From Prostheceraeus crozeri (Eukaryota; Platyhelminthes; Polycladida; Euryleptidae): a DNA stretch of 64,000 bases. The stretch covers positions 62,001 through 126,000 of the forward strand of contig CAJQUW010016165.1 of assembly GCA_907163375.1 (NCBI GenBank), read 5' to 3'. Position numbers and translations under genes: made by a program. The notes under the pieces were generated by a model, which did no database searches, was not told the origin of the DNA, and was given only the letters and a program-made list of their open reading frames with translations. This document shows, piece by piece, positions 21,194 to 54,574 of this stretch (its first letter is position 1; every line of letters starts with the position of its first letter).

Positions 21194-21336
21194 TATCCGA
21201 AGTTTTCAGATGCAGTTGACACGGACAAGCAAATCCTCGATTTTTTGAGACGGCTTTCAAAAAGATGATCTATATCATCAAAATAATTTTACTTTTCCTA
21301 CCACAAAATGTCCCGTAACCGACGCTTCCTCGCGAT

Positions 21337-24760: not shown

Positions 24761-24762
24761 TA

Positions 24763-25791: not shown

Positions 25792-28223
25792 TAGGTACAA
25801 TATTGGTTTTTCGCAACCCAAAAAAAGTAATAAATTGTCAAAACCACAGTTCCTTAACATTCATTTAACATTATATATTGTCATTTTCTACAAACAATCG
25901 ACAGCATTGGATATTAAAACCGAAAAATGAGGACCAATTCTATTGGTATTGGTGGCTGTTATAAAGTCTCAATCTAACGAACTTGTTGTTCATACTATTG
26001 ACACGGCTGAGATATATTTCAGATTAACGCGTGTCTAAATGCTCTTTTAAAAATTCACAGATTGCTTCAAGTCTAGGCTAAAATAAGATCATTAATTTGA
26101 ATTTTGGGATGCCTACAAATGTCTGGGTACGCATAATCAATCTGACTTTGGCAACCTGTCACCGGTGTGTGTCTGTTTCAGTAAAAAAACAAGACCATTT
26201 ACGTATAAAAGTTAATTCTTTTTTAACTTCTACGGTTAATTGACAAAACAGAACGATAACTCATGGAATTAACGGTCGCTAACACAATTACCGTTGTAAT
26301 TTCAACTGGTGCAATCATGTGCGAACAGCTGTAAACACGTGGGTTATCATTTTAAAAATGAACTTAAGCTGCTCGGTGTCCCGAACAATTCCTGCCCACG
26401 TCAGGATAGGCGGTTTCAACACGATGACCCTTCTAGCCTTTATATAGTATAGTATAGTATCTGATTTCTGTGGTCGTAGTGTTAATGTTTCTCCAAATGG
26501 GGAGGTCGTCATTAATTCATTTTTAATCATATTTTCATTTAGAGATATTTTGCTTCGTTTACAGGCATCAACATTTTCGAAATAACATAATAACGTGCTG
26601 ATACCTGTTGGTAAATTAAAACAACTTTCATGATTGTATTTGATATTTTATTGCTTGAGGAGGCTTCACAAAATTAGGCAGTAAAGAATGATTCTTTCTT
26701 ATAGCGAATGATTGATTGCATGCTGGAAAAATCAAAGGAGCTTTCGGATATTTCACTGTAACGGAGCTCGTGATTGTCGCTTGGTCCACATTTTCACAAT
26801 GTGTATGGTCTGTTGCATGGCAATTCATAGGATATTCCATTAAATTACAGCATGTGATTCAACTGGCATGAGCTTGGACAGATCATATAATACTAGTGAT
26901 ATTCTAAAGTATAGATATCAAACATCAAAACAAACTATAAAATAAAGAATCTTTATAAAAAGATTAACGCAGGAAAATCAATAACAGCAAGCTTATAAAA
27001 TCATTGGCATAATTGCACCACCAGGAATTGAGGAAGATGACCGCAACAGAATCGTGGATTGTCATGTCAGTTTAATAAAGCTAGCTCACCTCTAGAACTT
27101 GAAACAAAGAGCTCTTGGCTAAAAATTGAGAGACCATTGATCTAAAAATATTGCACGAGTTCTCACATTCCACATCCTAAAAGCAACAAGGAAGCTGACT
27201 GATATGGTAAAGAGGATATTGCTGATACTATGGTTGCATTTTCTGTCAAGTGATTTCAATTCTAGAAATTATTTACATGATGGATTGAAAACTCACAGGT
27301 ATTGGATGGGAAAGCCCACTTCATTTGTTTTAAATATTTCTTTTATCTTTACTTATGGAATTTCAGTTCCTTTGAAGCGTGGTCAAACATAGTGATTATG
27401 GCCAACCGCTAGCGCCGATGTTATGTAGCTCGTTATGTCGAAACTGTGATGCAGCTAAATGAAGACAGAACTATCTGATAGCGACGAAGGCAGTTTCCAT
27501 AGAGTAAGTATATTAGGCAGATTGGTAACTCCACATTTATTAAATCCCCAATGTGTATACACCTTCGATTTTATTAAATGATCTGAAGATGGATACAGTC
27601 GGAATTGTTTCCAAGTGTGAGACATGCACATTCATGCAGTTTTGAAGAAATTACAACGGAATTGCCTGATCATGATAGCATAAAGCAGAAAGATGATATC
27701 ATTTTACAGGTTCTCCGTGTCATGACAGCCTTGGAGAGGTAATGTTTGTTAAATTGGCAACTCGATGACCTGCTATTGCTTTCATGCTGAACCTCAAGAG
27801 AATCTTCTTATGCGTCATCACTTCATAAGGAACCTGCCACTGGTAAAGCAAAATAGCAGAAAGAAAGACGATGATTTCAATTAACTTTGAAAGATGTAAA
27901 TGGGTCCACATCACATTCAGATTCAACAACTGAGACATAAATTTAGTGAATTGTAAATTCATGACGATGAAAATTTAATTAACAGCATGGAATTTCAGCC
28001 ACGACAGCACAGAAAGATCTCGACTTTTTCATAAAGACTTCCATTATGATGCCGTTCATGAGATTTCCTCGATCATCAGCATAATTTCCTCTTAGTTACG
28101 ATGCTTGTTAGCGAATGTTCATTTCCTTTGATATCCAACTTGTTTCATACTTACAAAGGGGCGTCATGTCGGTAGTATTTAAATTGGCAAAAATTTAGCT
28201 TTTTCAAAAACTGCTCAAATAAT

Positions 28224-28341
28224 TGAAAAAAAATTGATTGCCACTGGCTTCGCAGGAATTCCTGCGAAGCCAGTGGCAATCAATTTTTTTTTCAATTACT
28301 CATCCAGGAATGGCCTCATTATACCATATGTATCAGCATGA
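28224..28341. mobile_element. 118-bp palindromic insertion, unit 1
   Basis: A 9-bp direct repeat TCAAATAAT (28215-28223 and 28342-28350) flanks a 118-bp segment. Comparison with the empty paralogue near 6521 supports an insertion. Its first part is a near-perfect palindrome, 28221-28297, with the axis between 28258 and 28259 and a single extra T in one arm. The remaining roughly 45 bp (CATCCAGGAATGGCCTCATT and following) is not palindromic. It matches no superfamily I know. Confidence 0.75.
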
Positions 28342-29121
28342 TCAAATAATGTTTTGGAACGCAGGAACGTAATCTCCGCAAAAAAATGAATCTTTTCATA
28401 AAAAAATTCTCACTGTATACAGATACTTTTTTGGGGCGACACTCTACCTACATATATTTACTCTATGGCAGTTTCCATATTATATATGCTCCAAGCAGTG
28501 AAGTGCATTTGGAATCTGCCACGGACGAGCGACTAGGTGAGTGATTTGATGCAATTACATTACTAACAACATCCATGTATATTAAATAGACTGCAATGTT
28601 GCGGATGAGAATGATCACAAGCTTTCTAAAAGCGTTGCATTGCGTAGGCCTTGACTAGATCAGCCAACTGTTGTGGTCATCTCTGCGCTTTTAACATCTA
28701 TCCTAATACTTCTTTCATTGATGTTCTTCTTCTACAATAATACTTGCAGTTTGAATTGTTGATGATATTTCTGTTTTCGGTACTTGTAATTTCCGTTTCC
28801 AGTGCTAAGTCTTCCTGTCGAATTCACCATTTCGCAACAAAAGCCTTTGCCTAAATCATCAGATATGTGAACACAGATGGTCTTATTTCATGAGATGATT
28901 TTTCTTTGTAGATAGCATAAGTTTACTGATAGGAAGCCATCCATCAGTGAAGAAGCCGATCACTTCTATGAAAGAAAACGGATCTGTCGTTCGATAGTGT
29001 CTTTGTTACGATTGGTCATCAAGCCTGCCATGAGCAAATTTTTCCCTGCAATGTTTTGCAATGAGGATATTTCATTATTTTGTTGTAATTAATGAACCGA
29101 GGATGAAACTGTAACCACGTA

Positions 29122-30151
29122 CACTGTAAATCGCTGGATACGAAAATTACATACAAACATATACCAAATCCACATAAAAATTGAAACTAACATCTGATAC
29201 GAGATTCTCGTATGTTTGCAGAGATCTAGTATGTTTTTCATATGACACCTTACTAATTTTCGTATTTGATTGGTATATAGCGATACTAACGAACTATTCC
29301 ATCTGTGATTGGCTGCTTTACAATGAAATACGAGCTGTTGGTATGTTTTATACACGAGGCCCGATGGAAATTGGTCCTCATTCGTATGTGTTTCGTATGA
29401 AGAGCTTTAAGTCAAATGGCAAAAAAATAAGTTATATTACATACTACTGTCAAATAACTCTTTTCCAGTAATACCAGTCGTGAATATTTCTTTGTGAAAG
29501 TGTGGCATTTAGCTAGATTAGATTTATTGTGAAATTAAGGCCGCATGTCATCGTTGCTACTTGTGTAATGACATTCACAATACTCATAATTATCTCATTT
29601 CATGAACTAAGTTGCTAAACATCAATTCATTCAAACAATATCTTTCGCGAAATCACGTTGACTTATATATCTCAAACATAACAATTTTTGCGTTCATGAA
29701 TTATAATGTGTTTCTATTTTGAATTTATAATAATAATGCTTAGTTTCAAAGTTACATAATGCATAATTGTTGATGGTTAAATACTTATTGATTATTCATG
29801 AAATGCCTTAGACTTACGTATATTAAAATCGAATTCAGTATTGTAAGTTTCACTATTAAATTTCATTATCTCACTACTCACAAAACAGTAGTAAAGATTA
29901 GTGTAATCTTTATTAACAAACGGCCTTAAATCAACATGCTTTGGACATGATTGATGTTTGCTTTTGAGATTGTGCTGGTATGGCTTTAGTATGTAAAGCA
30001 TACCACATTTGAAATAACCATGGACATTAATATGTCCATGGAAATAACATACGAAAAAACTACAAATATATACCAAGAGAAAACAGAAATATACCAAATT
30101 AATTTTGGTTTGCATCCTTCGTATGTGATTGGCATTGAGCGATTTACAGTG
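29122..30151. mobile_element. Tc1/mariner-type MITE, unit 2
   Basis: Same structure as the unit 1 copy: CACTGTAAATCGCT/AGCGATTTACAGTG ends and TA flanks, with one extra A in the A-run at about 29420. It is non-coding. Confidence 0.85.
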
Positions 30152-32583
30152 TAGGTACAATATTGGTTTTTCGCAACCCAAAAAAAGTAATAAATTGTCA
30201 AAACCACAGTTCCTTAACATTCATTTAACATTATATATTGTCATTTTCTACAAACAATCGACAGCATTGGATATTAAAACCGAAAAATGAGGACCAATTC
30301 TATTGGTATTGGTGGCTGTTATAAAGTCTCAATCTAACGAACTTGTTGTTCATACTATTGACACGGCTGAGATATATTTCAGATTAACGCGTGTCTAAAT
30401 GCTCTTTTAAAAATTCACAGATTGCTTCAAGTCTAGGCTAAAATAAGATCATTAATTTGAATTTTGGGATGCCTACAAATGTCTGGGTACGCATAATCAA
30501 TCTGACTTTGGCAACCTGTCACCGGTGTGTGTCTGTTTCAGTAAAAAAACAAGACCATTTACGTATAAAAGTTAATTCTTTTTTAACTTCTACGGTTAAT
30601 TGACAAAACAGAACGATAACTCATGGAATTAACGGTCGCTAACACAATTACCGTTGTAATTTCAACTGGTGCAATCATGTGCGAACAGCTGTAAACACGT
30701 GGGTTATCATTTTAAAAATGAACTTAAGCTGCTCGGTGTCCCGAACAATTCCTGCCCACGTCAGGATAGGCGGTTTCAACACGATGACCCTTCTAGCCTT
30801 TATATAGTATAGTATAGTATCTGATTTCTGTGGTCGTAGTGTTAATGTTTCTCCAAATGGGGAGGTCGTCATTAATTCATTTTTAATCATATTTTCATTT
30901 AGAGATATTTTGCTTCGTTTACAGGCATCAACATTTTCGAAATAACATAATAACGTGCTGATACCTGTTGGTAAATTAAAACAACTTTCATGATTGTATT
31001 TGATATTTTATTGCTTGAGGAGGCTTCACAAAATTAGGCAGTAAAGAATGATTCTTTCTTATAGCGAATGATTGATTGCATGCTGGAAAAATCAAAGGAG
31101 CTTTCGGATATTTCACTGTAACGGAGCTCGTGATTGTCGCTTGGTCCACATTTTCACAATGTGTATGGTCTGTTGCATGGCAATTCATAGGATATTCCAT
31201 TAAATTACAGCATGTGATTCAACTGGCATGAGCTTGGACAGATCATATAATACTAGTGATATTCTAAAGTATAGATATCAAACATCAAAACAAACTATAA
31301 AATAAAGAATCTTTATAAAAAGATTAACGCAGGAAAATCAATAACAGCAAGCTTATAAAATCATTGGCATAATTGCACCACCAGGAATTGAGGAAGATGA
31401 CCGCAACAGAATCGTGGATTGTCATGTCAGTTTAATAAAGCTAGCTCACCTCTAGAACTTGAAACAAAGAGCTCTTGGCTAAAAATTGAGAGACCATTGA
31501 TCTAAAAATATTGCACGAGTTCTCACATTCCACACCCTAAAAGCAACAAGGAAGCTGACTGATATGGTAAAGAGGATATTGCTGATACTATGGTTGCATT
31601 TTCTGTCAAGTGATTTCAATTCTAGAAATTATTTACATGATGGATTGAAAACTCACAGGTATTGGATGGGAAAGCCCACTTCATTTGTTTTAAATATTTC
31701 TTTTATCTTTACTTATGGAATTTCAGTTCCTTTGAAGCGTGGTCAAACATAGTGATTATGGCCAACCGCTAGCGCCGATGTTATGTAGCTCGTTATGTCG
31801 AAACTGTGATGCAGCTAAATGAAGACAGAACTATCTGATAGCGACGAAGGCAGTTTCCATAGAGTAAGTATATTAGGCAGATTGGTAACTCCACATTTAT
31901 TAAATCCCCAATGTGTATACACCTTCGATTTTATTAAATGATCTGAAGATGGATACAGTCGGAATTTTTTCCAAGTGTGAGACATGCACATTCATGCAGT
32001 TTTGAAGAAATTACAACGGAATTGCCTGATCATGATAGCATAAAGCAGAAAGATGATATCATTTTACAGGTTCTCCGTGTCATGACAGCCTTGGAGAGGT
32101 AATGTTTGTTAAATTGGCAACTCGATGACCTGCTATTGCTTTCATGCTGAACCTCAAGAGAATCTTCTTATGCGTCATCACTTCATAAGGAACCTGCCAC
32201 TGGTAAAGCAAAATAGCAGAAAGAAAGACGATGATTTCAATTAACTTTGAAAGATGTAAATGGGTCCACATCACATTCAGATTCAACAACTGAGACATAA
32301 ATTTAGTGAATTGTAAATTCATGACGATGAAAATTTAATTAACAGCATGGAATTTCAGCCACGACAGCACAGAAAGATCTCGACTTTTTCATAAAGACTT
32401 CCATTATGATGCCGTTCATGAGATTTCCTCGATCATCAGCATAATTTCCTCTTAGTTACGATGCTTGTTAGCGAATGTTCATTTCCTTTGATATCCAACT
32501 TGTTTCATACTTACAAAGGGGCGTCATGTCGGTAGTATTTAAATTGGCAAAAATTTAGCTTTTTCAAAAACTGCTCAAATAAT

Positions 32584-32701
32584 TGAAAAAAAATTGATTG
32601 CCACTGGCTTCGCAGGAATTCCTGCGAAGCCAGTGGCAATCAATTTTTTTTTCAATTACTCATCCAGGAATGGCCTCATTATACCATATGTATCAGCATG
32701 A
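32584..32701. mobile_element. 118-bp palindromic insertion, unit 2
   Basis: Same insertion as in unit 1, flanked by TCAAATAAT at 32575-32583 and 32702-32710. The centre CGCAGGAATTCCTGCG is intact. Confidence 0.75.
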
Positions 32702-33480
32702 TCAAATAATGTTTTGGAACGCAGGAACGTAATCTCCGCAAAAAAATGAATCTTTTCATAAAAAAATTCTCACTGTATACAGATACTTTTTTGGGGCGAC
32801 ACTCTACCTACATATATTTACTCTATGGCAGTTTCCATATTATATATGCTCCAAGCAGTGAAGTGCATTTGGAATCTGCCACGGACGAGCGACTAGGTGA
32901 GTGATTTGATGCAATTACATTACTGACAACATCCATGTATATTAAATAGACTGCAATGTTGCGGATGGGAATGATCACAAGCTTTCTAAAAGCGTTGCAT
33001 TGCGTAGGCCTTGACTAGATCAGCCAACTGTTGTGGTCATCTCTGCGCTTTTAACATCTATCCTAATACTTCTTTCATTGATGTTCTTCTTCTACAATAA
33101 TACTTGCAGTTTGAATTGTTGATGATATTTCTGTTTTCGGTACTTGTAATTTCCGTTTCCAGTGCTAAGTCTTCCTGTCGAATTCACCATTTCGCAACAA
33201 AAGCCTTTGCCTAAATCATCAGATATGTGAACACAGATGGTCTTATTTCATGAGATGATTTTTCTTTGTAGATAGCATAAATTTAGTGATAGGAAGCCAT
33301 CCATCAATGAAGAAGCCGATCAGTTCTATGAAAAAAAACGGATCTGTCGTTCGATAGTGTCTTTGTACGATTGGTCATCAAGCCTGCCATGAGCAAATTT
33401 TTCCCTGCAATGTTTTGCAATGAGGATATTTCATTATTTTGTTGTAATTAATGAACCGAGGATGAAACTGTAACCACGTA

Positions 33481-34509
33481 CACTGTAAATCGCTGGATAC
33501 GAAAATTACATACAAACATATACCAAATCCACATAAAAATTGAAACTAACATCTGATACGAGATTCTCGTATGTTTGCAGAGATCTAGTATGTTTTTCAT
33601 ATGACACCTTACTAATTTTCGTATTTGATTGGTATATAGCGATACTAACGAACTATTCCATCTGTGATTGGCTGCTTTACAATGAAATACGAGCTGTTGG
33701 TATGTTTTATACACGAGGCCCGATGGAAATTGGTCCTCATTCGTATGTGTTTCGTATGAAGAGCTTTAAGTCAAATGGCAAAAAATAAGTTATATTACAT
33801 ACTACTGTCAAATAACTCTTTTCCAGTAATACCAGTCGTGAATATTTCTTTGTGAAAGTGTGGCATTTAGCTAGATTAGATTTATTGTGAAATTAAGGCC
33901 GCATGTCATCGTTGCTACTTGTGTAATGACATTCACAATACTCATAATTATCTCATTTCATGAACTAAGTTGCTAAACATCAATTCATTCAAACAATATC
34001 TTTCGCGAAATCACGTTGACTTATATATCTCAAACATAACAATTTTTGCGTTCATGAATTATAATGTGTTTCTATTTTGAATTTATAATAATAATGCTTA
34101 GTTTCAAAGTTACATAATGCATAATTGTTGATGGTTAAATACTTATTGATTATTCATGAAATGCCTTAGACTTACGTATATTAAAATCGAATTCAGTATT
34201 GTAAGTTTCACTATTAAATTTCATTATCTCACTACTCACAAAACAGTAGTAAAGATTAGTGTAATCTTTATTAACAAACGGCCTTAAATCAACATGCTTT
34301 GGACATGATTGATGTTTGCTTTTGAGATTGTGCTGGTATGGCTTTAGTATGTAAAGCATACCACATTTGAAATAACCATGGACATTAATATGTCCATGGA
34401 AATAACATACGAAAAAACTACAAATATATACCAAGAGAAAACAGAAATATACCAAATTAATTTTGGTTTGCATCCTTCGTATGTGATTGGCATTGAGCGA
34501 TTTACAGTG
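33481..34509. mobile_element. Tc1/mariner-type MITE, unit 3
   Basis: Same structure and near-identical sequence to the unit 2 copy, with TA flanks. It is non-coding. Confidence 0.85.
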
Positions 34510-36941
34510 TAGGTACAATATTGGTTTTTCGCAACCCAAAAAAAGTAATAAATTGTCAAAACCACAGTTCCTTAACATTCATTTAACATTATATATTGTC
34601 ATTTTCTACAAACAATCGACAGCATTGGATATTAAAACCGAAAAATGAGGACCAATTCTATTGGTATTGGTGGCTGTTATAAAGTCTCAATCTAACGAAC
34701 TTGTTGTTCATACTATTGACACGGCTGAGATATATTTCAGATTAACGCGTGTCTAAATGCTCTTTTAAAAATTCACAGATTGCTTCAAGTCTAGGCTAAA
34801 ATAAGATCATTAATTTGAATTTTGGGATGCCTACAAATGTCTGGGTACGCATAATCAATCTGACTTTGGCAACCTGTCACCGGTGTGTGTCTGTTTCAGT
34901 AAAAAAACAAGACCATTTACGTATAAAAGTTAATTCTTTTTTAACTTCTACGGTTAATTGACAAAACAGAACGATAACTCATGGAATTAACGGTCGCTAA
35001 CACAATTACCGTTGTAATTTCAACTGGTGCAATCATGTGCGAACAGCTGTAAACACGTGGGTTATCATTTTAAAAATGAACTTAAGCTGCTCGGTGTCCC
35101 GAACAATTCCTGCCCACGTCAGGATAGGCGGTTTCAACACGATGACCCTTCTAGCCTTTATATAGTATAGTATAGTATCTGATTTCTGTGGTCGTAGTGT
35201 TAATGTTTCTCCAAATGGGGAGGTCGTCATTAATTCATTTTTAATCATATTTTCATTTAGAGATATTTTGCTTCGTTTACAGGCATCAACATTTTCGAAA
35301 TAACATAATAACGTGCTGATACCTGTTGGTAAATTAAAACAACTTTCATGATTGTATTTGATATTTTATTGCTTGAGGAGGCTTCACAAAATTAGGCAGT
35401 AAAGAATGATTCTTTCTTATAGCGAATGATTGATTGCATGCTGGAAAAATCAAAGGAGCTTTCGGATATTTCACTGTAACGGAGCTCGTGATTGTCGCTT
35501 GGTCCACATTTTCACAATGTGTATGGTCTGTTGCATGGCAATTCATAGGATATTCCATTAAATTACAGCATGTGATTCAACTGGCATGAGCTTGGACAGA
35601 TCATATAATACTAGTGATATTCTAAAGTATAGATATCAAACATCAAAACAAACTATAAAATAAAGAATCTTTATAAAAAGATTAACGCAGGAAAATCAAT
35701 AACAGCAAGCTTATAAAATCATTGGCATAATTGCACCACCAGGAATTGAGGAAGATGACCGCAACAGAATCGTGGATTGTCATGTCAGTTTAATAAAGCT
35801 AGCTCACCTCTAGAACTTGAAACAAAGAGCTCTTGGCTAAAAATTGAGAGACCATTGATCTAAAAATATTGCACGAGTTCTCACATTCCACATCCTAAAA
35901 GCAACAAGGAAGCTGACTGATATGGTAAAGAGGATATTGCTGATACTATGGTTGCATTTTCTGTCAAGTGATTTCAATTCTAGAAATTATTTACATGATG
36001 GATTGAAAACTCACAGGTATTGGATGGGAAAGCCCACTTCATTTGTTTTAAATATTTCTTTTATCTTTACTTATGGAATTTCAGTTCCTTTGAAGCGTGG
36101 TCAAACATAGTGATTATGGCCAACCGCTAGCGCCGATGTTATGTAGCTCGTTATGTCGAAACTGTGATGCAGCTAAATGAAGACAGAACTATCTGATAGC
36201 GACGAAGGCAGTTTCCATAGAGTAAGTATATTAGGCAGATTGGTAACTCCACATTTATTAAATCCCCAATGTGTATACACCTTCGATTTTATTAAATGAT
36301 CTGAAGATGGATACAGTCGGAATTGTTTCCAAGTGTGAGACATGCACATTCATGCAGTTTTGAAGAAATTACAACGGAATTGCCTGATCATGATAGCATA
36401 AAGCAGAAAGATGATATCATTTTACAGGTTCTCCGTGTCATGACAGCCTTGGAGAGGTAATGTTTGTTCAATTGGCAACTCGATGACCTGCTATTGCTTT
36501 CATGCTGAACCTCAAGAGAATCTTCTTATGCGTCATCACTTCATAAGGAACCTGCCACTGGTAAAGCAAAATAGCAGAATGAAAGACGATGATTTCAATT
36601 AACTTTGAAAGATGTAAATGGGTCCACATCACATTCAGATTCAACAACTGAGACATAAATTTAGTGAATTGTAAATTCATGACGATGAAAATTTAATTAA
36701 CAGCATGGAATTTCAGCCACGACAGCACAGAAAGATCTCGACTTTTTCATAAAGACTTCCATTATGATGCCGTTCATGAGATTTCCTCGATCATCAGCAT
36801 AATTTCCTCTTAGTTACGATGCTTGTTAGCGAATGTTCATTTCCTTTGATATCCAACTTGTTTCATACTTACAAAGGGGCGTCATGTCGGTAGTATTTCA
36901 ATTGGCAAAAATTTAACTTTTTCAAAAACTGCTCAAATAAT

Positions 36942-37062
36942 TGAAAAAAAATTGATTGCCACTGGCTTCGCAGGAATTGGCTTCGCGAAGCCAGTGGCAA
37001 TCAATTTTTTTTTCAATTACTCATCCAGGAATGGCCTCATTATACCATATATATCAGCATGC
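36942..37062. mobile_element. Palindromic insertion, unit 3, altered centre
   Basis: The insertion is flanked by TCAAATAAT at 36933-36941 and 37063-37071. The centre reads CAGGAATTGGCTTCGCGAAG instead of CAGGAATTCCTGCGAAG: the left arm is unchanged, and a new, shifted axis TTCGCGAA has replaced the old one. Confidence 0.75.
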
Positions 37063-37842
37063 TCAAATAATGTTTTGGAACGCAGGAACGTAATCTCCGC
37101 AAAAAAATGAATCTTTTCATAAAAAAAATCTCACTGTATACAGATACTTTTTTGGGGCGACACTCTACCTACATATATTTACTCTATGGCAGTTTCCATA
37201 TTATATATGCTCCAAGCAGTGAAGTGCATTTGGAATCTGCCACGGACGAGCGACTAGGTGAGTGATTTGATGCAATTACATTACTGACAACATCCATGTA
37301 TATTAAATAGACTGCAATGTTGCGGATGGGAATGATCACAAGCTTTCTAAAAGCGTTGCATTGCGTAGGCCTTGACTAGATCAGCCAACTGTTGTGGTCA
37401 TCTCTGCGCTTTTAACATCTATCCTAATACTTCTTTCATTGATGTTCTTCTTCTACAATAATACTTGCAGTTTGAATTGTTGATGATATTTCTGTTTTCG
37501 GTACTTGTAATTTCCGTTTCCAGTGCTAAGTCTTCCTGTCGAATTCACCATTTCGCAACAAAAGCCTTTGCCTAAATCATCAGATATGTGAACACAGATG
37601 GTCTTATTTCATGAGATGATTTTTCTTTGTAGATAGCATAAGTTTACTGATAGGAAGCCATCCATCAGTGAAGAAGCCGATCACTTCTATGAAAGAAAAC
37701 GGATCTGTCGTTCGATAGTGTCTTTGTTACGATTGGTCATCAAGCCTGCCATGAGCAAATTTTTCCCTGCAATGTTTTGCAATGAGGATATTTCATTATT
37801 TTGTTGTAATTAATGAACCGAGGATGAAACTGTAACCACGTA

Positions 37843-38820
37843 CACTGTAAATCGCTGGATAAATGCTGGATTGCATACAAACATATACCAAGATCACATA
37901 CAATTTGAAAATAACATTTGATACGAGATTCCGGCATTCTTACAGAGATCTGTCATGTTCTTCATACGAAAGCTCTCGTACTTTCGTATGTGATTGGTAT
38001 GTAGCGATACGAGCTATTCTATCTCTGGTTGGCTGTTTTACACTGAAATACTAGCTGTTGGTATGTTTTATATACGAGACCCGATGCAAATTCATCCTCA
38101 TTAGCATGCCTTTGGTATGCCTCTAATATGTACAGCTTTAAGTCACATAGAAAAATATATATATATATATATTCACACTACTGTCAAATCACTTTTTTTC
38201 GGTAATACCAGTCGTGAATGTTTTTTTTGATAGTGTGATAGAAGAGATTTATTGAGCACATTAACAATGGTATTATTATTGTAAATGAGTATTAACAGGA
38301 CGCTTAGATAGGTCTACTATATGAACCAAGTTTACTAGCATCAATTCATTCAAACGATGTTTTTCATGCACTCATGTTGACATATATATCTCAAACATAA
38401 CTATTTTTGCGTTCATGAATTATAATGTGTCTTTGCTTCGGATTGATAATATGCTTAATTTCAAAATTACATAATTGTTGATGGTTGAATACTTATTGAT
38501 TATTTATTAAATGCCTTAGACTTACATGTATTAAAATCGAATTCAGTATTGTAATTTTGACTATTGAATGTCATGATCTCACTACTTGTAAAATAATATC
38601 AACATTACCGTGATCTTTATTGACAAAAGGCCTTATCAACATGCTTTGGACATGATTGATGCTTTCTTTTAAAATTGTGCTGGTATGGTTGTAGTGTGCA
38701 AAGCATACCACACTTGAATCAACATACGAAAAGCATGCAACTACAGTATATACACAAATATATAAAAAATATTTTGGTGTGCATCCTTCGTATGTGATTG
38801 GTATTGACCGACTTACAACG
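37843..38820. mobile_element. Tc1/mariner-type MITE, diverged terminal copy
   Basis: It starts CACTGTAAATCGCTGGATAA and ends GACCGACTTACAACG + TA at 38821-38822. The interior aligns with the family but is clearly diverged, lacks the 30-bp hairpin insertion of the array copies, and contains a short (TA)n at about 38155-38171. It closes the tandem array and is probably the original right-hand partner of the recombination that made it. Confidence 0.75.
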
Positions 38821-38822
38821 TA

Positions 38823-41074
38823 GCTGCATGAAATATGACAATGGTTTTTTTACGTGCTGAGATCCGGAGCATGTTGCCAGTCATTTCACAAAAATGTACT
38901 TTTTTACACTGTGCACTATGTTTTTTATAACCCAATACAGAGATCATAGGTAATAGAAAGGAATTCTCACATCCGAGTTGATAACGGGTCACTAAATATT
39001 TTTGTTGAATTACGGAATGGTAAATTATCAATTTGACATGTTTTTGCGTGAAAATATTGGTTTAGCTTATGTCTGTCGCTGTTGAAAGTTTTGTCTGCAT
39101 GCATGAGACGCTCTGGCGGTTCGCTTATTCAAGGAAACCTGGTTCGTAAGCGCATAGTACCGGTATTTTTTGTTGAATAACAATTTTAATGTCTACAACA
39201 TTTAGCCTACACCAATATGCAGCCAATTTACCAAAAATAAAATAATGTTTCATTGACTAGGACATTTTTTCAAAGTCTGGGTACTGGGGCATTCATAGGG
39301 TTCCTACTGCAGTTTAGCCGATGTGGCTCATCAGGGATTCTCGGAAAAAACTCACGTTCTAAGAAAAAAAATCAGATAAGAAAATCACTTGATTGACTTA
39401 ATGACTTGAAGGCGACATCATTGCATGAAAATACTTGTGAAATGCCAGGAATGCAGGATTTAACAATAGTTAAACATCGATGTAGCAAGCGCACCCGTCT
39501 CACTGGAAGCGGTCCCATTAGAGCGACGGTCGCTATGCCTACAAAATATACATTGACACTAATCTATGAGCAGTATAAAAACTGAATTAGTAGTTAGGAT
39601 TGTTTCATGGCGTTACCACTCTCAGATCACAATGTTTTATGTGAGAATTAAAATGCATTATGGTCAAGAGTTCAAGATAGCACCTTTGATGTATAACCGA
39701 CAAAAGATGAGATGAGTCTCTTAACACAAAAATGAAGTAGTAATTGGCGGGAGTGTGAATTTCTTATGCACATCGATGTCAACTCAAGTTGTCAATTGAG
39801 TTGAAGAAGTGCTGATTTGCACTCTAACTGTCTGTGATTTCTTTGCATATTTCGAATCACATCATTGAACATAGCTTGAAACATCATGAAACATTGGAAT
39901 ATACGAAAACACGAACGCATATAGAATGGATGCGAGTCATTTCGGATCGAATTCGAAGATGGCTAAAAAGTAGTAAATACCCACTTTACTACTCCTAAAA
40001 GTAGTAAATTTCGGTTGTGATCTCAAAAGGCAAAATTGAAGTACTGATCTTAATAAAGCTGCTATCAGAACAATTTGTCTAGTTCGAGCATCTTACTTGT
40101 GTATTTCAAATCGGATTTTATACATTCATTATCCATATCAACAGCTTTGATGGGTTATTCAGTTACATGTAGGCAACATGCAAATCAAATGGGAACAATC
40201 AATGATTTATAATTCTGCTTTCTAGTTTTATTCAAATGTGACATTGTTAATTGGCATAAAATCAGGTCTGACATCAATGTATAACAGTTTCTAAAACGTT
40301 CATGCAAATACATATGGATTGTACACGTGCACTCCTATCAGTGATTTTCTCTTTAGTAGGCCTATTTTGCTCTTAAAACGATCATGTATTTGTGTGTATG
40401 CATAGCGGTTCATGTCGTCATGAAATAAGTCACCCGTGGTGCGCTTTGAAACACTTGACCCACAATCCCATGCTACATTTCTAGCATTTTTTCGTGAAAG
40501 ACCTTGACATTGAACCAAGGCGCAGCACCTACTTCAAAGATATTTTGATATTTTAAAGTTATTCCAGATTTTATTTCCTTCAGCTATTTATTTTGGTCCA
40601 TGGCCCCTTACTAAGCTCTTCTAGTAGCGGCTACGAAGCTTCGAAGAAGGAAATATTAGTGCAAATGTGGTGAGGGTGTGTTCATTGTCTTCAAACCGTT
40701 AGTAGGCCTACTGAGGTCGATCCTGATCTCACGTCTTTAACTTCCTGCAATACCCTACACACCATGTGCATGTTGCAAAATAATAGAAGAACCAAACAAG
40801 CTGATGTGTAGAATATGTGTAAATATAGAGTGTTCGATATACATATTCTTATTTGTATACATGTATGCAGAATTAGGCCTACTTGATCTGTCATCCTCAT
40901 GGCTGCCTTTGTCGTCTTTACCATTGCCTCTGCGCTGTCTTCACCATCCCACAATGAGGGCTACATCATAACATCCTCTCCATTGTTGATGGAATCATGC
41001 AGCGAGTGAATCGCTCAGGTTTTTGATCTGAAAGTTACACTTATTCTGACTTTCACAATAGCGCATTTCGCGAT

Positions 41075-41226: not shown

Positions 41227-43100
41227 AAAGAAAGAACAAATGCTTTGACCGGACATGTTTCAATCTTCTTTCAAGATCATCTTCAGCGGAAAGTTACAAT
41301 TAAAGACAAATCTTTCTTAAATACGTAGTCACATTGAAAACTGTTCATTCTGGAAGGCACGTAATAGCATAGAAATCTTAAGTCAGACAGATAAAATAAA
41401 ATAAAATAAAAACACGAAGTTACAACCTACTCAAATAATTTAGAAGATAGTGTGTACAATTCGTAAAATAAGTTACAGATTTAAAGAAAGAGTGTATGAT
41501 CCGTTCCTTTCATTAGCGAGATTTTCATTACTTTTTATGAATATCGACTCCAGGATAAATGGTTGCTTGCATTTACCAATAATGGAAAAATTTTCTTTTT
41601 TAGGACGATGAGGGTGAGTAGAGATTTCAGTAGGTGAAGGATAACCCTTCATGTGTTCCTTCATCCGAGTGTCGAGGTGGCGTTTTGTGGCGCCGACGTA
41701 CCGCATTTCGCAACGGTCACAAGCGTATTGATATACGATAGATGATTTTAGATCACTCGGAATTTTATCTTTATTCGGAAATTGATTTAACAGTTTACAG
41801 ACTTTGTAAACTGGCCTAACTTCTAAATTCGGAGGAAGCAACTCATTCAGAGAGCGAATTTTGTTTTTCAAATCATTTTGAGCTTGGCTAATGAAAGGAA
41901 CAGACCACACTACTCTTCTCACTTGCGCCCGCTCATTCTCAGCTTGAGAATCATTTACAGTTGAAGCCCCGCACTCAATATTCCTTTCAACCTTTTCTTT
42001 GATACGGCTGATGGTTTTACTGTCAAAACCATTTTTAATAAAGATATTAGAGATCTCAACCGCCGAAGCTTCGTATAACCTGGGATTAGTGCAGATTTTA
42101 TAAGCTCTGTAAAATAAAGAACGCATGGCAGACAACCTATACGACATGGGAGCATAGGCAGAGTAAGGCATATAGATGCCAGTGTTGGTAGGTTTGATGT
42201 GAAAATCAATATCGATACCAGAATTGCAGCAAATGTTTGTATCCAAGAAGACGATCCAATCGTCTTTACTTGTTTCCATGGTAAACTTGATGCTATCATC
42301 AAGCGAGTTCAAAAAATTCAAAAAATCAGCTTGCTTGGTCATCATTATCAAAAATGGCCAAACAATCGTCCACATATCTCCCATAAAATTTGGGAGGCTG
42401 CCCCTGGTAGTTATCAAACTTCGCTTCGATCATGTCCATAGTAAACGCGGCCATGGTGGGACCCAAACTAGATCCCATCGCCATGCCATCCACCTGATTG
42501 TAAAGTTTTTTATCAAAGGTAAAAAGAATATTGGTGCAGGCCAGTTCAAGTAAAGCTTTAAGGGCTTCACGTTTGATAGGAAAATTGCCGAAATCTATCA
42601 TGGACAAGACATGATCAATGGTTCTTCTTACCGGAATGTTGGTAAAGAGACTCGAAACATCGTAGCTACAAGCACGATAGCTAGCATTCGGATTTTCGTT
42701 TGTGAATTCTTTTAATTTCTCAACAAGATGAAAAGTATCTTTCAGCACAAAACGCTGAGGAATATATTTTTTCAAAACCGAATCAAGCCATTGGGCTAAT
42801 TTAGACGTATACGAATTTCTCATGTTAAGAATCGGGCGATATGGTGGGTCACTCATGCTCTTGTGGACCTTCGGCAGCCCATAAAGTCTGGATGGCTGAG
42901 ATCCATTAGATTTTATCATTTGAAACAACTCATCACTTATCAACTTCTTCGATTTCAGAGCTTGCAATTTTCTATTTAAGCGATCTTCCTCTAAGATAAA
43001 GGGGTCTTTCTTAGCCCGTTTGTCGTAAACATAAGATTTGAACTTTGACTCGTCTTTCAGAATGTCATTCAATTTGCGAACAAAATTTTCTTTGTCGTCA
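41225..43100 (-). mobile_element. Penelope-like retroelement, copy 2
   Basis: A minus-strand copy of the element at 21337-23208, with the same 3' UTR (ending against (TA)n) and coding sequence. It extends about 33 bp further 5' than copy 1 and stops at another (TA)n tract at 43101. Both boundaries therefore lie in TA repeats. Confidence 0.9.
41473..43100 (-). pseudogene. PLE reverse transcriptase/GIY-YIG, frameshifted
   Basis: Two overlapping frames, 42326-43072 (extending in frame to about 43100) and 41473-42417, together cover the same protein as copy 1. A stop plus a 1-nt insertion just after the YVDDCLAIF region, at about 42325, splits them; copy 1 shows the uninterrupted sequence there. 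Copy 2 keeps the family residues that copy 1 has lost (LYGLPKVHKS, LFTNIPV, SSLGPTMAAF). The GIY-YIG part (MRYVGATKRHLDTRMKEH) and its C-terminal glutamate are present. The 5' part of the full element is absent. Confidence 0.9.
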
Positions 43101-43160
43101 ATATATATATATTGATATATATATATATAATATATATATATATACAGTATACATATACAC
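43101..43160. repeat. (TA)n-rich tract
   Basis: An interrupted TA microsatellite directly at the 5' junction of PLE copy 2. Confidence 0.9.
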
Positions 43161-44010
43161 AGTATATAATTATATCAGTGCCGTCGTCCCCGTGCCTGCG
43201 AGGCCTTCGCCGCATACCCAAAATAATTATTTACGTTCATAAAACAAAGGTTATTTTTGTTTTTGAGAGTATCCTTATGTTTACAACTTTACACACAATT
43301 CACAGTTTCAAGTCACTACTCTCAAATACGCTCCGAGTGCCAGCGCTCAGCTGTTAACTGCAGGGATCTTCAAACAATCACACAATGCGCTGGGGATGTG
43401 TTCACAGCAAATCACAGAGATTTGTGTGTTTGTGTGATATGTGGAGCGTGTGCGCTTAGCTCGATCGTCTTCTCCCGGTAGAAACGAAGAAGCAAATATA
43501 TTGCAGCAATGCAAGAAAAGATCTATTTACAAATTCTTAGATTCAGATAGAGAGAGAGAGAGAGAGACGCAAATTTTCCCTATTCGTGGCTTCGCCAAAC
43601 TTTGGAGAAGATGATGACGCATTGAATTGTCGTGTCTGCGTTCACCAATGGCTGAATGTCGGATCGGAAGGTGAGAAGCCGATGAAAGATAGAGCGATGA
43701 AGTTTCCATGATTGATGTGTAATTCAGTCAGAGATACTGATTCAGGGGATATTGGTGATATTATGTTTATGACGGCGATTTCCACAATGGTTATTTTCTA
43801 CACCGGCTAGTCGTCCGATGGATTGTGCAGAAAACTCAAACCATCGTACACGAAGTACATGGCATTGAAATAAAACTAAACCACTCTCAAGAGATAGAAT
43901 ATGAGGAGGAGCACTAAAAACAATTTAGCAGCCCTAAATTTGAAGAATGTAAGTGATTGACAGGCTAAAATAAACACAAGTGTCATGCGTTGGCGAGAGC
44001 TTCCTCGAGA
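43161..44010. other. No recognisable gene
   Basis: No supported coding region. A (GA)n tract lies at about 43545-43567. Confidence 0.4.
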
Positions 44011-44348
44011 CACGGTGGGTTTAAATTTCGAAAAAGTCAGAAAAAAATGCCCGGCCAATTTGTCATCATTTTTTGATAATATACCAATAGCTCATCATTT
44101 TAAGACAAAAACGAAAATCGTTTAACTATGGCTTTCTGAGAAAATGGCGAAAAGCGGTTTTCATACTACTTATGAAATAGTTTTCAAACTTATAGTGAAA
44201 ACTAAAAGATTAGAGGTCAGTATTGTTACAGTTTTGTAATCAATGATGATCAGTAGTCCATCTATAGTTAGAATGACAATCCCCAGTTACCTCGCCTTTT
44301 ATTATATTCAATTAATGTCCCTCAAATACTACTTTCAAGAGCAAAATC
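44011..44348 (+). repeat. Left terminal inverted repeat
   Basis: Same length as, and closely matching, the complement of 47252-47589. It starts CACGGTG, similar to the heptamer-like CAC tips of Transib/RAG-type elements. Confidence 0.85.
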
Positions 44349-44617
44349 CTGATATGAAGTCGAAAAGATGAACATCAATTTACAAATCACATTTATGCAA
44401 AATATTCATAATAATGTAATTCTATTAATTATGATACCCACGTTGGTGTGTCTGCATCTTTATGACATCAGAACAATATTCATAGAAATCAACTTGATTT
44501 ACTTTAAAAAAATGATCAACATTGACAACGATACGGAGTAAGTATGTATTTTAGAAATTACAGAAAACACATGCATAAAATGCCGCGAAATATAATAAAC
44601 ATGAAGTGGTGAACAAG

Positions 44618-46636
44618 CTAAACATGCTTACTATTGTACTCACCCACAGCACAAAGTAGTGCGGTCGGATAATTTGGATGATTCTCTGGCACTTTATACT
44701 TGTACCATGTCGATTTAAAGTCACTGTGAATAGCTTCGAGTGACTATTCTGAAGATCGACCAAGTGAAGCTTCATTCTTCAAACAAAATTCTTTCACATG
44801 ATAGAAAACACAATGGACCTTTGGAGTCACCGGTATGCTCAAGGCCATATAGCTTTCCTGAAACTTGTCGAGATATTCAACAAAGTTTTGATCATTTAAG
44901 TTTGTGCCGAAACAAACAGAAACAACCTTGTCGAAATCACGAAAGGTCTTTACAAATTTCAAAATTTGTATCGGGCACATTGATTGTAATTTGTCTACAT
45001 TCCTGAGAAGTTTGCGACAACTGTTCCCATCAAATGATCCTCCATGGTAGGCTTGACGCTCTAAGTGACATTCTTCAGCCCAGCATCGGACTCCTGACCA
45101 CTGAGCTTCTATTGCTCTATACAAATGGTTCACAACACCTAGCATAAGGTGGAGTTCAGGTGGAGGATACAGGTTGATCACTAATGTCTCCGAATCACCT
45201 GCTTACAAAGGAGAATGGACACAGTTTTCAAAATGTTTAGCTGAATTGGGAGCGGCACCTGATTTTTGCCAGTTCCAGAATTGCTGCTTCATCCTCCCAA
45301 GAGTTCGCAGGGTGTCCTCCTCAGATAAATTTGCCTTGTCAACGTTGCACCAGCAGCACGGATGCACAGAACTATGAGCATTCAAACCAAAGATAATGTT
45401 TCCCAACTTCAAATCTGCTGACAGAAACAACCTGTCGGCCAAAATGTCCTTCATTTCAGAATCACCCACAGTTGAAGTATATTTCTGTAATTTTCATAAA
45501 TGATCGGAACAATTGCGATAATGAAGGTTCTTTTGACACTTGTCTCTTTGAAATCCCTTGCTGCAGCACCATGAATGTATTGAATTCGTCGACGTTCTTC
45601 TTGAAATTCTCTATTGGAGCTTAGAACTGCAAGGCATACTTTCAAAAAGCCGCCCCCACCATCAATGCCGACTTTAATTGTCAATTCATTCGTCTGGAGA
45701 TTCCTTTCTTCTTGAATTCTTGCTATAAGGCCGTTTAAATCACAGCAATAAGCAGTCGCTTGGCCTTTGATTGTTCCATCTTTCTCCTTCTAGTCACTTG
45801 TGACGGACACATCAAAGTAATCATCAAGACAATGGTTCACTTTAGACAGCTTTTATTTCAAACCAACTTCAATAATCCCTCGTTTACCTACACAACTGCG
45901 AATATGTTTGGCAACTAATAGAGTTCGTGGATAAGTTTAGATCGACCTGCAACTTGGACATACCGCGTGCTGATATTAGATGTTGTGCAGACGACAATTG
46001 AGCTACTGTAGAACAACACACTTCAACTGGACGACCACCTGTAGAAAATTTTGCAGAACTCGAAGAATGTTCAGGCGAGTTGATCTTCTCTTTCAGAACG
46101 CGCGACGCCATCAATTCTTTTGTGTTCTGATTGCTGTTGTTGATAAAGTCCTGGATGTTGTTCCGCCGTGAAGTTTCGCAGCACTTGTGTTCACAGCCTT
46201 TGGCTACGGTTGATAAGCACTTACAACACAGTCTCACAACTTCGCGATGTTCATTGATGATCTCTTGAGGTCTACCACGATCCATTTTCGTCGATAATGA
46301 TGTCGTTGAATTAATATTTGCGGATGCGAGTTGACACAGGACACAAGGGCAATGCGAATGTGAACGTGTATACGGTGGCGTTCCTGTCATTAAAGAGTGA
46401 TCAGCAAGAACTAAATGTCTTTTGAAAATACCTCGTCCATAGTCCAAAACGACAGTTCGACATGTTGAGCAGAGAGCACTGGGCAAACGGTTATCGTCGA
46501 CGTTGTATTCCATGAAGAAATTGTTTATGATCTCGTTGTGTCTGCTGTTTATGGGACGCATTTCTTTGGACTTTCCCAGACGAAGAAGGCACAGCGCCAA
46601 GCGGTTTTCATCATGCGATTTAGCAGCATGTGGCAT
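44618..46636 (-). pseudogene. RAG1-like transposase (N-RAG-TP type), inactivated
   Basis: The first 250 codons (46636-45884) hold paired cysteine motifs: CLLRLGKSKEMRPI (the second ligand changed to Arg), LPSALCSTCRTVV, HSHCPCVLC, MDRGRP and CCKCLSTVAKGCEHKCC. The order and spacing match the RAG1 N-terminal region upstream of its RING finger. Later parts carry VGIDGGGGFLK (candidate first catalytic Asp), HPCCWC, PPPELHLMLGVVNHLY, YHGGSFDGNSCRKLL and RSSE-stop-SLEAIHSDF, in the order of the RAG1 core (Asp; zinc site; ALHCDIGN-like; NGNF-like; catalytic Glu). Breaks seen: a frame change near 45884, stops near 45859 and 45790, a frame change near 45480, a stop near 45203, and a stop at about 44744 replacing the residue after the Glu. 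The RAG1 family link is by motif order; no search was run. Confidence 0.65.
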
Positions 46637-47251
46637 TCTTCACCTCATAACCTAGCAGAAGAGTCGAGTGCAACGAATATGTGCACGCAATACTTGTACG
46701 TGCGCATATCAATTTTTTCTGAGTAATTTGAATTCATAAATAGTGAAATTAGCACAACGCACGTTAATTATATTTCTATGAATAAGCTTGCAAATTTAAA
46801 ATTTTCGATGCATGATAGATTTGCACATTCACAAATTTCCATTGATAATTTCAAAACTGAATACCGATTGCTATATACAATGTAGCTCTATTCTATTGTA
46901 AAACATCTAAGATATCGACAACACAAATAGTCTACGCCAGCAAGAGCTCTAATCAGGTTTGACTAAAAAAGAGTTCTCAGAAAATTGTTTAGCTAGGTCT
47001 ATTCTTTCTAGACGAGTGCATATATTTGTAAAATGAGGATTTCCTTGTTATCGCAAAAGCATTGGCACAGTAATTAATTTCTTTTAAATAACCAATGCCG
47101 GTTTCTCATGTAGCCTATGTGTATCGTATCAATATCATTATCGAAAAGAAGCTCATCTGAGCTCTGTATTTCGATTTTATGATAAATAGTAGGATTCAGA
47201 AGCAGTGCAAAATATATCCAAAGTAATACATAACATTTTAACATCAAAAAT

Positions 47252-47589
47252 GATTTTGCTTTTGCAAGTAGTATTTGAGGGACATTAATTGAATATAATA
47301 AAAGTTGAGGTCACTGGGGATTGTCATTCTAACTATAGATGGACTACTGATCATCATTGATTACAAAACTGTAACAATACTGACCTCTAATCTTTTAGTT
47401 TTCACTATAAGTTTGAAAACTATTTCATAAGTAGTATGAAAACCGCTTTTCGCCATTTTCTCAGAAAGCTATCGTTAAAAGATTTTCGCTTTTCTCTTAA
47501 AATGATGAGCTATTGGTATATTATCAAAAAATGATGACAAATTGGTTGGGCATTTTTTTCTGACTTTTTCGAAATTTAAACCCATCGTT
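47252..47589 (-). repeat. Right terminal inverted repeat
   Basis: Inverted partner of 44011-44348 with the same length. About 615 bp separate its inner edge from the gene's start codon, leaving room for a promoter. Confidence 0.85.
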
Positions 47590-48060
47590 GAGAGGGAATG
47601 TTCTCTACAGTGATCTCACCAAGGCGATCAAGCATCATGTGAGAAATCAACATCACATTTTCATTTTCATTTGACGTTTAAAATCTTGGGAAAACAAGAG
47701 TCGCGTTGACGAACAATCAGCTTAGGATTGCATGCTTATGAGACTGTTCAGAAAAAGAGGACATTGGACTCACAGTGAATCATAATTCACATGCAGTATA
47801 GTCTACATTGGGTAGTCTATGGACTTCACTGTACCTTTCATTAAAATATCAGTTTCTATTTCTCACATAATTTCATTTAATTCTGTAGTAATGGATGCCA
47901 GCATGACTTGAATGTTCATGTACTTGTACAAGTGTTTGAAAATTCACTGAAATTAAGATAGTGTCATATTAATTATATTATGCAGTTCATGCTGTCTGTT
48001 GCAGAAATATAGGAAACCACTATGGAGCGAAGGCCTATGGTCTGTGAGCACGCGACGCCA

Positions 48061-48061: not shown

Positions 48062-48127
<66 letters not shown>
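48062..48127. repeat. (TA)n microsatellite
   Basis: About 33 uninterrupted TA dinucleotides, the longest in the window. Confidence 0.95.
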
Positions 48128-48130
<3 letters not shown>

Positions 48131-48276
48131 CAAAAAATTGCAAATAGTATATGAAGACGTAGATGAATAAATAAATAAATAAAAGATGTCATGGACCTAA
48201 AGTCAAATTCCTGTTAGTAATGTATATATGACCGGTCCAGGACAACTAAAAAAAAGATACCTCCAGAATGCAAAAT

Positions 48277-48620
48277 TGGAATATTTCATAGACTGAAAAA
48301 AGATCTAAAAAATAAAAAATAAAATAATAAAATCAAAAAAAAGTTTTAAGCTCGTTGGGATTTTTTCATATACTGAGAATGAGTAGAGGAATATTTCATA
48401 GACTGAAAAAGACCTAAAAAATAAAAAATAAAATAATAAAATCAAAAAAAAGTTTTAAGCTCGTTGGGATTTTTTCATATACTGAGAATGAGTAGAGGAA
48501 TATTTCATACACTGAAAAAGAGTTTTACGAATAAAAATAATATTAAGGATAAAATTAAAAAACAATTTCTACAAATTTTTAAACAAATTCGTTTGGATTT
48601 TTTCATATACTGAAAAGAGG
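48277..48620 (+). repeat. Tandem repeat, about 110-bp period
   Basis: Units begin GGAATATTTCATAGACTGAA at 48277, 48388 and 48497. The first two are nearly identical and the third is diverged. Each contains AAAGTTTTAAGCTCGTTGGG followed by TTTTTTCATATACTGAGAAT. Confidence 0.9.
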
Positions 48621-48624
48621 TTTC

Positions 48625-48850
48625 AAAAATATCACGTAGTCTAAAAATTTCACGTAGTCGAAAATTTATGTAATCCAAAAATTTGGGTAGTCTAAAAATT
48701 TCACGTAGTCGAAAATTTAAGTAGTCTAAAAATTTCACGTAGCCGAAAATTTAATTAGTCCAAAAATTTAGGTAATCCAAAAATTTACGTAGTCTAAAAG
48801 TTTACAAAATTTATGTAGTCTTTTCACATAGTCTTAAAATATCAGAAGAA
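48625..48850 (+). repeat. Minisatellite, about 18-bp period
   Basis: Degenerate copies of a unit like CACGTAGTCTAAAAATTT. The reverse strand reads as a repetitive frame rich in F, L, R, I and D (48505-48738), which is a product of the repeat and not a gene. Confidence 0.85.
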
Positions 48851-52394: not shown

Positions 52395-54574
52395 CCCTTA
52401 GACGGCCAAGCCACTTGATACTACGAGAATGGCCAAGGGGTGGTGATTTTAAACACCGCCATAATTTTTTATTCTAACCCAATTTTTAACCCAAAAGACT
52501 TTATTATTCCAAATGATATCTAATTATTCGAAATGAATCATTATCAGCAAAAAAGTTAGTTATTTGAGACACAGCATTGAATGCAAACGAAATTACTCTG
52601 TGATTTGCAAGCTGGAATTTCAGAAAGTCCGCATTTTCTTTGGTTTCGAGTGCATCGAGTGGTTTCTCGCTTTCTTCTTTACATCTTTGGCATCTGAACA
52701 GTTCTTGTCCAGCTGAAGGATTTGGAGGATTTTGTCTTGTGGTTCTTGGATTTGGTACTCTGATTCTGTGGGACATCAAGGAGACGATCTCATTTGGTAT
52801 TCCAACTGGATCACTCAATCGGAAACTCATATGCGGAGTCGCTAATTGCTCTGCGAGTTGAAGAAGAAATTGTCGTCTTCTAATCTTCTGTGGCAGACTT
52901 GTCTAATCCGAATGATGCAAGTTGAAAATAGTGTAGACATTAATGGCATTTATATCAAGGACATTTTGCATATGAACCATTGGCCATCGTCGAACACTCG
53001 TTCTGCATGAGTATGCCTTCGCCACTTGGCTAGCTGCATCAACACCGGCTTTAGTAGAATTGTAGTACTCTTGAATGGTATTCTTCTTTTTTGGAGTGTT
53101 AGTAACTTCTCCTGAGTGCATAGTGGAAAGCATATACACTTTACTCTTTCGCTTCACCTTGTAGCTTTGTAGAGTGACCTTTCGCTCGTCCTCAGAATAA
53201 GCAAACTTTGACTCATGCCTTCGGTTTCCTGATGCAGCACAGGAGGGATAAATCGCTTGTTTTCTTGTAGAGTTCCAACAAATGTTGTTTCCTTCTTTAG
53301 CAATTCAACTGCCATTTCCTTTGAGCTGAAAAATCTGTCGCCTGTGAGTGACATTCCGTCCATAGTTCAGGAAGGGTTCAGTCAAATGAAGGACAAGCTT
53401 CTTGCCCGTGTTGTTTGCTTTGTGGCCTGCGGCTGCATTAGGATCAGAAGGCTTCTTGCATGATGGCGATCCATTCAAATAATACCGATGTTTGGAATCA
53501 CAGGCCCAGTGAATAACCTCGCCAAACTTCCCCGGCTTTCTCGGATTGTAGACAGTATGAGGTGACCTGCACCGGGATGCCACCAATTGCTCGTCTACAG
53601 CGATGCACTCACTTGGAGTAAAGTAGATCCGCAGCCTTTCGTTCCATTTCATCCAAATATCTCTCATTGCAGCAAATGTATCTGTGAGCTTTCGATTTTC
53701 GCGGGTCTCTGGATCATCAAACCTCATACAACGGCTCCATATTCGAAACAAATTTCTGCCCATTGCCGTTCTGTAAAACGTTGAATATTGAGCACTCCAC
53801 AATTCATTTGTAGGGATGTGTTGATCGTTGTTTGCACCACGATAGTATAATATTCCCAAGTAAGCTTTCAATGACTCCATTGAGAGATTCACATGAATTC
53901 CAATATTATTCGCTTTTCTTTGGGAGTACCAAAGGTTTTCCTCTAACATATCTGGCGGGCAGAATAGTTCCCACGTTTCTGAGATTGCGTCTTCGCTTCA
54001 TTTGTAGGCCCCTCGTTATCTCGGTATACGTTCTCAGCATATCGTTTTCTTTCCGTACGAGCATTTTCCGACCATTTGTTTCCATCTTTGTCTGTCCACA
54101 TGTTATCCTGTTGAGCTGGTTCTTCTTACGGTTGCGGACGCATATAGCTTCTTGGAATTACGTCTTCTTCGTCTGTTGATGAGATATAATTATCAGGATC
54201 TTGCTCTGCTCTCACGTCATTGATTTGCACCACACAACTCTCATTGTCTCCACTTGAACTATCGCCATCCGATTCATTGATATCAAACAGTCTGTCTACA
54301 GCTACACGGGCAGCAGCTCTTCTTGGTCGTGATGAAGTTGCCATTGCATGCGAAGTAGAAATGAATTCACATCCACTCCCTTGTCAACACGCACATTACA
54401 CGCAAGATGCGATCGATGCAGGCGCCGCTGGAATGCGAAACTCTTCAGGGTTTAATGACAATACCCATAAACTAAAATTCATCAAGTTTCAGTTCCTATC
54501 GAGTTGTTGATTAGGAATGCAGACGAAAACTCCGAAGGGGTGGTGATTTTCACCACCCCTTGGCCGTCTAAGGG
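52395..54574. mobile_element. Full-length piggyBac element, inactivated (2180 bp)
   Basis: Perfect 16-bp terminal inverted repeats, CCCTTAGACGGCCAAG (52395-52410) and its complement (54559-54574), are flanked by TTAA at 52391-52394 and 54575-54578. A second copy of GGCCAAGGGGTGGTGATTTT lies 35 bp inside the left end; at the right end GGGGTGGTGATTTTCACCACCCC forms a hairpin adjoining the terminal repeat. A decayed transposase gene fills most of the interior on the minus strand. Confidence 0.92.
52504..54344 (-). pseudogene. piggyBac transposase, inactivated
   Basis: Pieces run in order on the minus strand. 54344-54126 is an acidic N-terminus starting MATSSRPRRAAARVAVDRLF. 53949-53305 carries LKAYLGILYYRGANN, ECIAVDEQLVASRCR and NPRKPGKFG. 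53363-53154 carries SLTGDRFFSSKEMAVELL. 53157-52903 carries KAGVDAASQVAKAYSCRTSV and RRWPM. 52830-52504 holds the start of a C-terminal cysteine-rich region (FRCQRCKEE). The three catalytic Asp residues of the DDE_Tnp_1_7 fold are visible in VDEQLV, GDRFFSS and GVDAASQ, although the usual second Asp of GVDxxDQ is Ser. Frame changes separate the first four pieces, a stop lies near 52903, and the last cysteines continue in another frame. The protein would cut and paste DNA at TTAA; this copy cannot. Confidence 0.9.

Follow-up and report, generated by a model that had tools for sequence, protein, structure and literature searches.

How did RAG1 come to possess both a zinc-rich N-terminus and a catalytic core? 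One published scenario derives it from insertion of an N-RAG-TP transposon into a Transib (PMC8355894), whereas another holds that the N-terminal domain and core were already joined in the ancestor (PMC4411706). The question is raised by a locus in the polyclad flatworm Prostheceraeus crozeri, within a 64,000-nucleotide stretch of contig CAJQUW010016165.1 (positions 62,001 to 126,000; hereafter the window), in which a transposon at 44011-47589 holds one broken gene with RAG1-like motifs in both its N- and C-terminal parts. We consider this element very probably a dead cut-and-paste transposon of the CACTA/Mirage/Chapaev/Transib (CMCT) clade, likely of the Chapaev/N-RAG-TP group, encoding a single protein of RAG1 layout that lacks a RING. 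Because its family unites the two parts in a single protein, within precisely defined ends, and still has intact members in the genome that moved recently, it favors the joined-ancestor scenario, and the family is open to biochemical testing.

Element boundaries and insertion site

Comparison of the two arms identified 337-nt inverted repeats at 44012-44348 and 47252-47588 that are 96% complementary without gaps. An alignment of 28 ends, drawn from 14 two-ended copies including that of the window, revealed one additional outer base per repeat, and we therefore set the limits of the element at 44011 and 47589. This yields 3579 bp bounded by terminal inverted repeats (TIRs) of 338 bp each, the equal repeats and exact positions of the preliminary description. 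The consensus start is CACGGTGGGTTTAAATTTCG, with C at position 1 in 27 of the 28 ends; the window copy differs on its right side, where A replaces the outermost C. Searches for repeats and relatives covered 2.05 Gb of genome in 14,165 contigs. At least 40 places match the TIR at 95-100% identity (best 40 of 146 candidates, the window's two ends included).

Exact 4-bp target duplications flank 9 of the 14 end pairs of the window subfamily, compared with 0 in 2000 shuffles of the right flanks among copies and 0-2 at eight shifted positions. As an empty-site query, we joined the two flanks of the window element with a single GAGA (200 nt). All 40 places scored, from 948 candidates and judged by alignment rather than letter by letter, align across the junction (91-95% identity over 187-203 bp), so the empty form of the host repeat is common and the insertion is clean. 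The element thus lies inside an interspersed repeat (flanks 43911-44010 and 47594-47693) that matches no fewer than 40 further places among those scored.

Across all families read, 15 of 30 end pairs bear an exact 4-bp duplication, 1/30 a 5-bp duplication (as seen at L037), and 14/30 none. The 30 pairs consist of 28 plus L035 and L036, neither with an exact duplication. Left out were L019, as a probable repeat of L016, and loci without both ends (L029, L031, L043, L044, L046, L053, L054, and others of L029-L058). L016 and L019, whose sequences agree at 99.2% and whose flanks are the same but reversed, probably represent a single locus carried by two contigs. Among the fourteen pairs without an exact duplication, L011, L017, and C13567 are near misses by eye; no exact duplication is present at L030, L050, L051, L052, or L056. 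Outside the CACGGTG ends of L036 and L056, which show no duplication, the sequence resembles mutual inverted repeats, and these two loci are perhaps nested within another inverted repeat.

TIR identity within copies ranges from 95.6 to 100% (14 copies), with the window copy's TIRs the most diverged. The two TIRs of a single copy (L009-L021) are mostly more alike than the average between copies, which suggests homogenization between ends or subfamily sources.

The broken gene and its intact relatives

The element's single gene survives as open pieces of 251, 112, 96, and 152 amino acids in two frames (Table 1), which jointly align with residues 1-673 of P0001, an intact 673-aa homologue. A read-through query recovered 75 proteins at E <= 0.001 (7993 candidates scored), many of them full-length, and an alignment of 37 of these (A1) contains cysteines and acidic residues that are invariant or nearly so. 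The N-terminal piece contains, in series, C-x2-C, C-x2-C, C-x-C-x2-C, GRP, C-x2-C..H-x-C, and a second GRP; the window copy has partly lost the first cysteine pair. The RAG1 counterpart of its ZAD-like segment is the C1-C2 region. In the core, the second catalytic Asp lies 19 residues ahead of a C-x2-C, a spacing as in RAG1, and between this Asp and the final Glu are C428 and C431 (37/37) and H609 and H614 (35/37, with 2 gaps). The window copy has an in-frame stop three residues ahead of the catalytic Glu and is coding-dead. A single broken gene with paired-cysteine and core motifs in RAG1 order, as the preliminary description had it, is thus what the locus contains, and the motif order is conserved across the family.

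The family profile identifies the core as RAG1/Transib-type, and the core is predicted to fold as a RAG1/Transib core with D, D, and E, at 14-15% identity to RAG1. Searches with single sequences did not reveal this likeness: Pfam returned no RAG or Transib model for the four window pieces, and PDB returned no RAG1 or Transib chain for the first piece, the last piece, or P0001, the best matches being an unrelated kinase (0.063) and spectrin (0.42). The likeness of the core to RAG1/Transib emerges from the profile and the predicted fold, not from single sequences.

No RING model matched in the 37 A1 members, in six family members of another scan, or in the intact relative L059; Sina_RING matched just 1 of 23 N-terminal fragments, at 0.051. 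Other weak Pfam matches, among them DUF1258 and PF23526 (AprA_N; 3e-4 for one window piece, 2/37 members), were discarded as below cut-off and scattered. Separately, DUF1280 matches 5/37 A1 homologues (best 6.4e-7), and on this profile match DUF1280 proteins may be related to these transposases.

Within the window subfamily, 18 of 20 fetched loci have a protein match, and neither these nor the window copy contains a whole frame; searching with the TIR, proposed earlier as a route to intact copies, thus gave at least 40 places but no intact gene among the loci fetched from this subfamily. Indels are mostly private among the 10 copies compared, as would be expected had an active source spread and its copies then decayed one by one. 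The same private indels disfavor an origin of the copies from one dead element moved in trans.

Intact genes are found further afield. A genome-wide protein search with P0001 gave 74 matches (66 of 7034 candidates scored), 15 of which (38-49% identity) are complete, stop-free frames. We inspected four intact sister lineages. Both L048 (48% to P0001; CACGGTGGG ends) and L064 (41%; CACGCCCTG ends) carry a 4-bp duplication; L063 (44%; CACGGTGGGG ends, one terminal base altered) has none. The fourth, L059-L062 (37%), carries 675-aa genes between repeats of >660 bp that begin CACGGTGGGACG. Three copies match L059 at 99.7-99.8% over 4.8 kb, and of six copies with both ends checked, five have exact 4-bp duplications and one a mismatched duplication. 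L059-L062 is a very young RAG1-like family with intact genes and recent movement. We found no second long gene in the 5,025 bp read of L059 (the element minus its last few bases), and no second long frame in the window element beyond the single gene's remains. Elsewhere, no relative was confirmed by a single scan of viral_contigs (28 pattern matches) or by another of prokaryote genome_contigs (54 pattern matches), and a search of phages, for near-identity only, found no near-identical DNA.

Table 1. Features of the window element
Feature	Position	Strand	Basis
Left target-site duplication, GAGA	44007..44010	none	Flank comparison; flanks joined with single GAGA match empty repeats
Left TIR, 338 bp, starts CACGGTGGGTTTAAATTTCG	44011..44348	+	Arm comparison, end alignment
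Transposase gene remains (start 46636, last stop 44618), frameshifts and stops	44618..46636	-	Open reading frame pieces aligned to intact homologue
RAG1/Transib-type catalytic core, approximate limits from P0001 residues 220-673	44621..45979	-	Profile, predicted fold
Catalytic Glu, SE*SLEAIH	44735..44737	-	Glu in 35/37 homologues, 2 gaps
Second catalytic Asp, ADLKLG	45413..45415	-	Conserved across homologues
First catalytic Asp, KVGIDGGGG	45661..45663	-	Asp in 37/37 homologues
N-terminal piece, zinc and GRP motifs	45884..46636	-	Open reading frame piece, family alignment
ZAD-like zinc domain, residues 8-73 of 251-aa piece	46421..46618	-	Weak fold and Pfam matches
Right TIR, 338 bp, outermost base altered	47252..47589	-	Arm comparison, end alignment
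Right target-site duplication, GAGA	47590..47593	none	Flank comparison

Classification and relation to RAG1

Chapaev transposons duplicate 4 bp of target and CACTA and Mirage elements 2-3 bp; the 4-bp duplications of the window family agree with the Chapaev length. CMCT transposases are described as sharing C-x2-C and H-x3-4-H, mostly CA..TG ends, and 2-5 bp duplications (PMC12730594), and the window family has these motifs, CA..TG ends, and a duplication of fitting length. Such features would also suit another CMCT lineage (CACTA, Mirage, or an unnamed one) whose tie to RAG1 goes no further than the clade, but we regard this as unlikely in view of the duplication length and the RAG1-like N-terminal zinc domain within the same protein. 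The Chapaev transposase, in its published description, combines a RAG1-N-terminus-like Chapa domain with a distant core, in some cases with a RING (PMC4411706). The window family likewise joins a RAG1-N-like zinc domain to a distant RAG1/Transib-type core, but, set against that description, is missing the RING of two Chapaev subgroups. N-RAG-TP of Aplysia is also described as an invertebrate transposon with a RAG1-N-terminus-like protein (PMC8355894, PMC2996935), whereas, compared with its description, the window family's protein continues into a RAG1-type catalytic core. Because the CMCT features are present, the 5-bp duplications and RAG2L gene of RAGL transposons absent, and the Chapaev layout fitting, we file the element under CMCT, probably with Chapaev/N-RAG-TP, an assignment that draws on published descriptions of both groups. 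The bounded element of the preliminary description, its one protein RAG1-like in both the N- and the C-terminal part, is borne out, in a coding-dead copy without a RING; such transposons were already known, the same arrangement having been described for Chapaev (PMC4411706).

The preliminary description also mentioned the Transib-type ancestry of RAG; the element itself is not shown to be a Transib or RAGL transposon. Placement as a Transib or RAGL (ProtoRAG-type) transposon in the direct RAG1 lineage would accommodate the CAC ends (CACGGTG matches the heptamer CACAGTG of the recombination signal sequence [RSS] at 6/7 positions), the RAG1/Transib core fold, and the RAG1-like zinc region at the N-terminus, likenesses that extend to RAGL/ProtoRAG as described (PMC7204232). 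However, RAGL transposons have 5-bp duplications and a RAG2L gene (PMC7204232), and Transib (HzTransib structures) also duplicates 5 bp, whereas the window family duplicates 4 bp (15/30, versus 5 bp at 1/30) and has no second gene or RAG2 partner, this gene being missing also from the 5,025 bp read of the intact sister element L059. The core identity to RAG1 of 14-15% contrasts with >30% reported for TransibSU cores, and canonical Transib is described as having no further identifiable domain, unlike the window family (PMC4411706). We judge direct RAG1-lineage membership very improbable. As for a 12/23 RSS signal, GAAAAAGTC (12-bp spacing) matches the nonamer at 5/9 positions and AAAAAAATG (23-bp spacing) at 6/9; we claim no such signal, because neighboring spacings score equally and 1.7% of window positions reach a score of 6.

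The preliminary claim of RAG1 likeness held for the core, and the N-terminal likeness is weaker. Several results weigh against the latter and would fit convergent cysteine pairs, with the core alone related. The hhalign score of the N-terminus against that of RAG1 was equalled by 2 of 200 permutations, and the N-terminal fragment profiles align with those of RAG1 only over the second cysteine pair. A PDB search with the transposase-fragment profile gave one ZAD chain (rank 6/10, E 0.55), ZAD chains were absent from the matches listed for the RAG1-fragment profile, and full-length RAG1 had no zf-AD match at E <= 5. Convergence nonetheless seems rather unlikely to us, as zf-AD is the commonest Pfam model for the transposase N-terminal fragments (19/23, below the Pfam cut-off; best E 6.3e-5) and, after RAG1's own, for RAG1 fragments (10/12), while matching 0/10 cysteine-kept shuffles even at E <= 10. 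In addition, H-x7-C-x2-C and P-x3-C-x2-C, a pattern picked post hoc, are common to 35/44 and 22/22.

In Drosophila transcription factors, ZAD is fused to C2H2 fingers. This domain (zf-AD) shows a weak fold and Pfam match to the first zinc domain of the window family, where the ZAD-like domain is fused to a transposase instead. We tentatively raise the possibility, itself doubtful, that RAG1 C1-C2 is a ZAD and that the ZAD of arthropod transcription factors, RAG1, and the transposase N-termini share an ancestor carried with the core by CMCT transposons. If so, RAG1 would not be a fusion of N-RAG-TP and Transib, both parts having traveled as a unit all along, and the ZAD proteins would represent a further domestication of such transposases. 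The shared zf-AD match would place RAG1's N-terminal zinc region in a known domain family; in open-licence papers, we found no literature link between the RAG1 N-terminus and ZAD.

Proposed mechanism and neighboring features

In RAG1, the GGRPR motif grips A/T-rich DNA. By analogy, the GRP motifs of the window family might hold its A/T-rich repeats in the manner of an AT-hook, and a transposase dimer would pair two CACGGTG ends through these motifs and the core. The D-D-E site would cut, probably through hairpins on flanking DNA like RAG and Transib, and the freed element would be joined with a stagger of 4 bp. For the ZAD-like domain, a role in dimerizing or anchoring the protein is probable, and a RAG2-like partner would not be needed.

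Elsewhere in the window, 24760-38823 comprises near-identical tandem copies (95-97% alike) of a ~4.36 kb unit. Three of the copies contain a 142-aa open frame, and the one frame scanned had no Pfam match. Two related reverse-transcriptase regions (21319-22950 and 41473-43174; Pfam RVT_1) are, we presume, Penelope-like. At 48064-48820, an AT microsatellite precedes a direct repeat of 109 bp and an array of 17-nt periodicity, and 53305-53997 contains a transposase fragment (Pfam DDE_Tnp_1_7, E 1.1e-28) that we take to be of piggyBac type.
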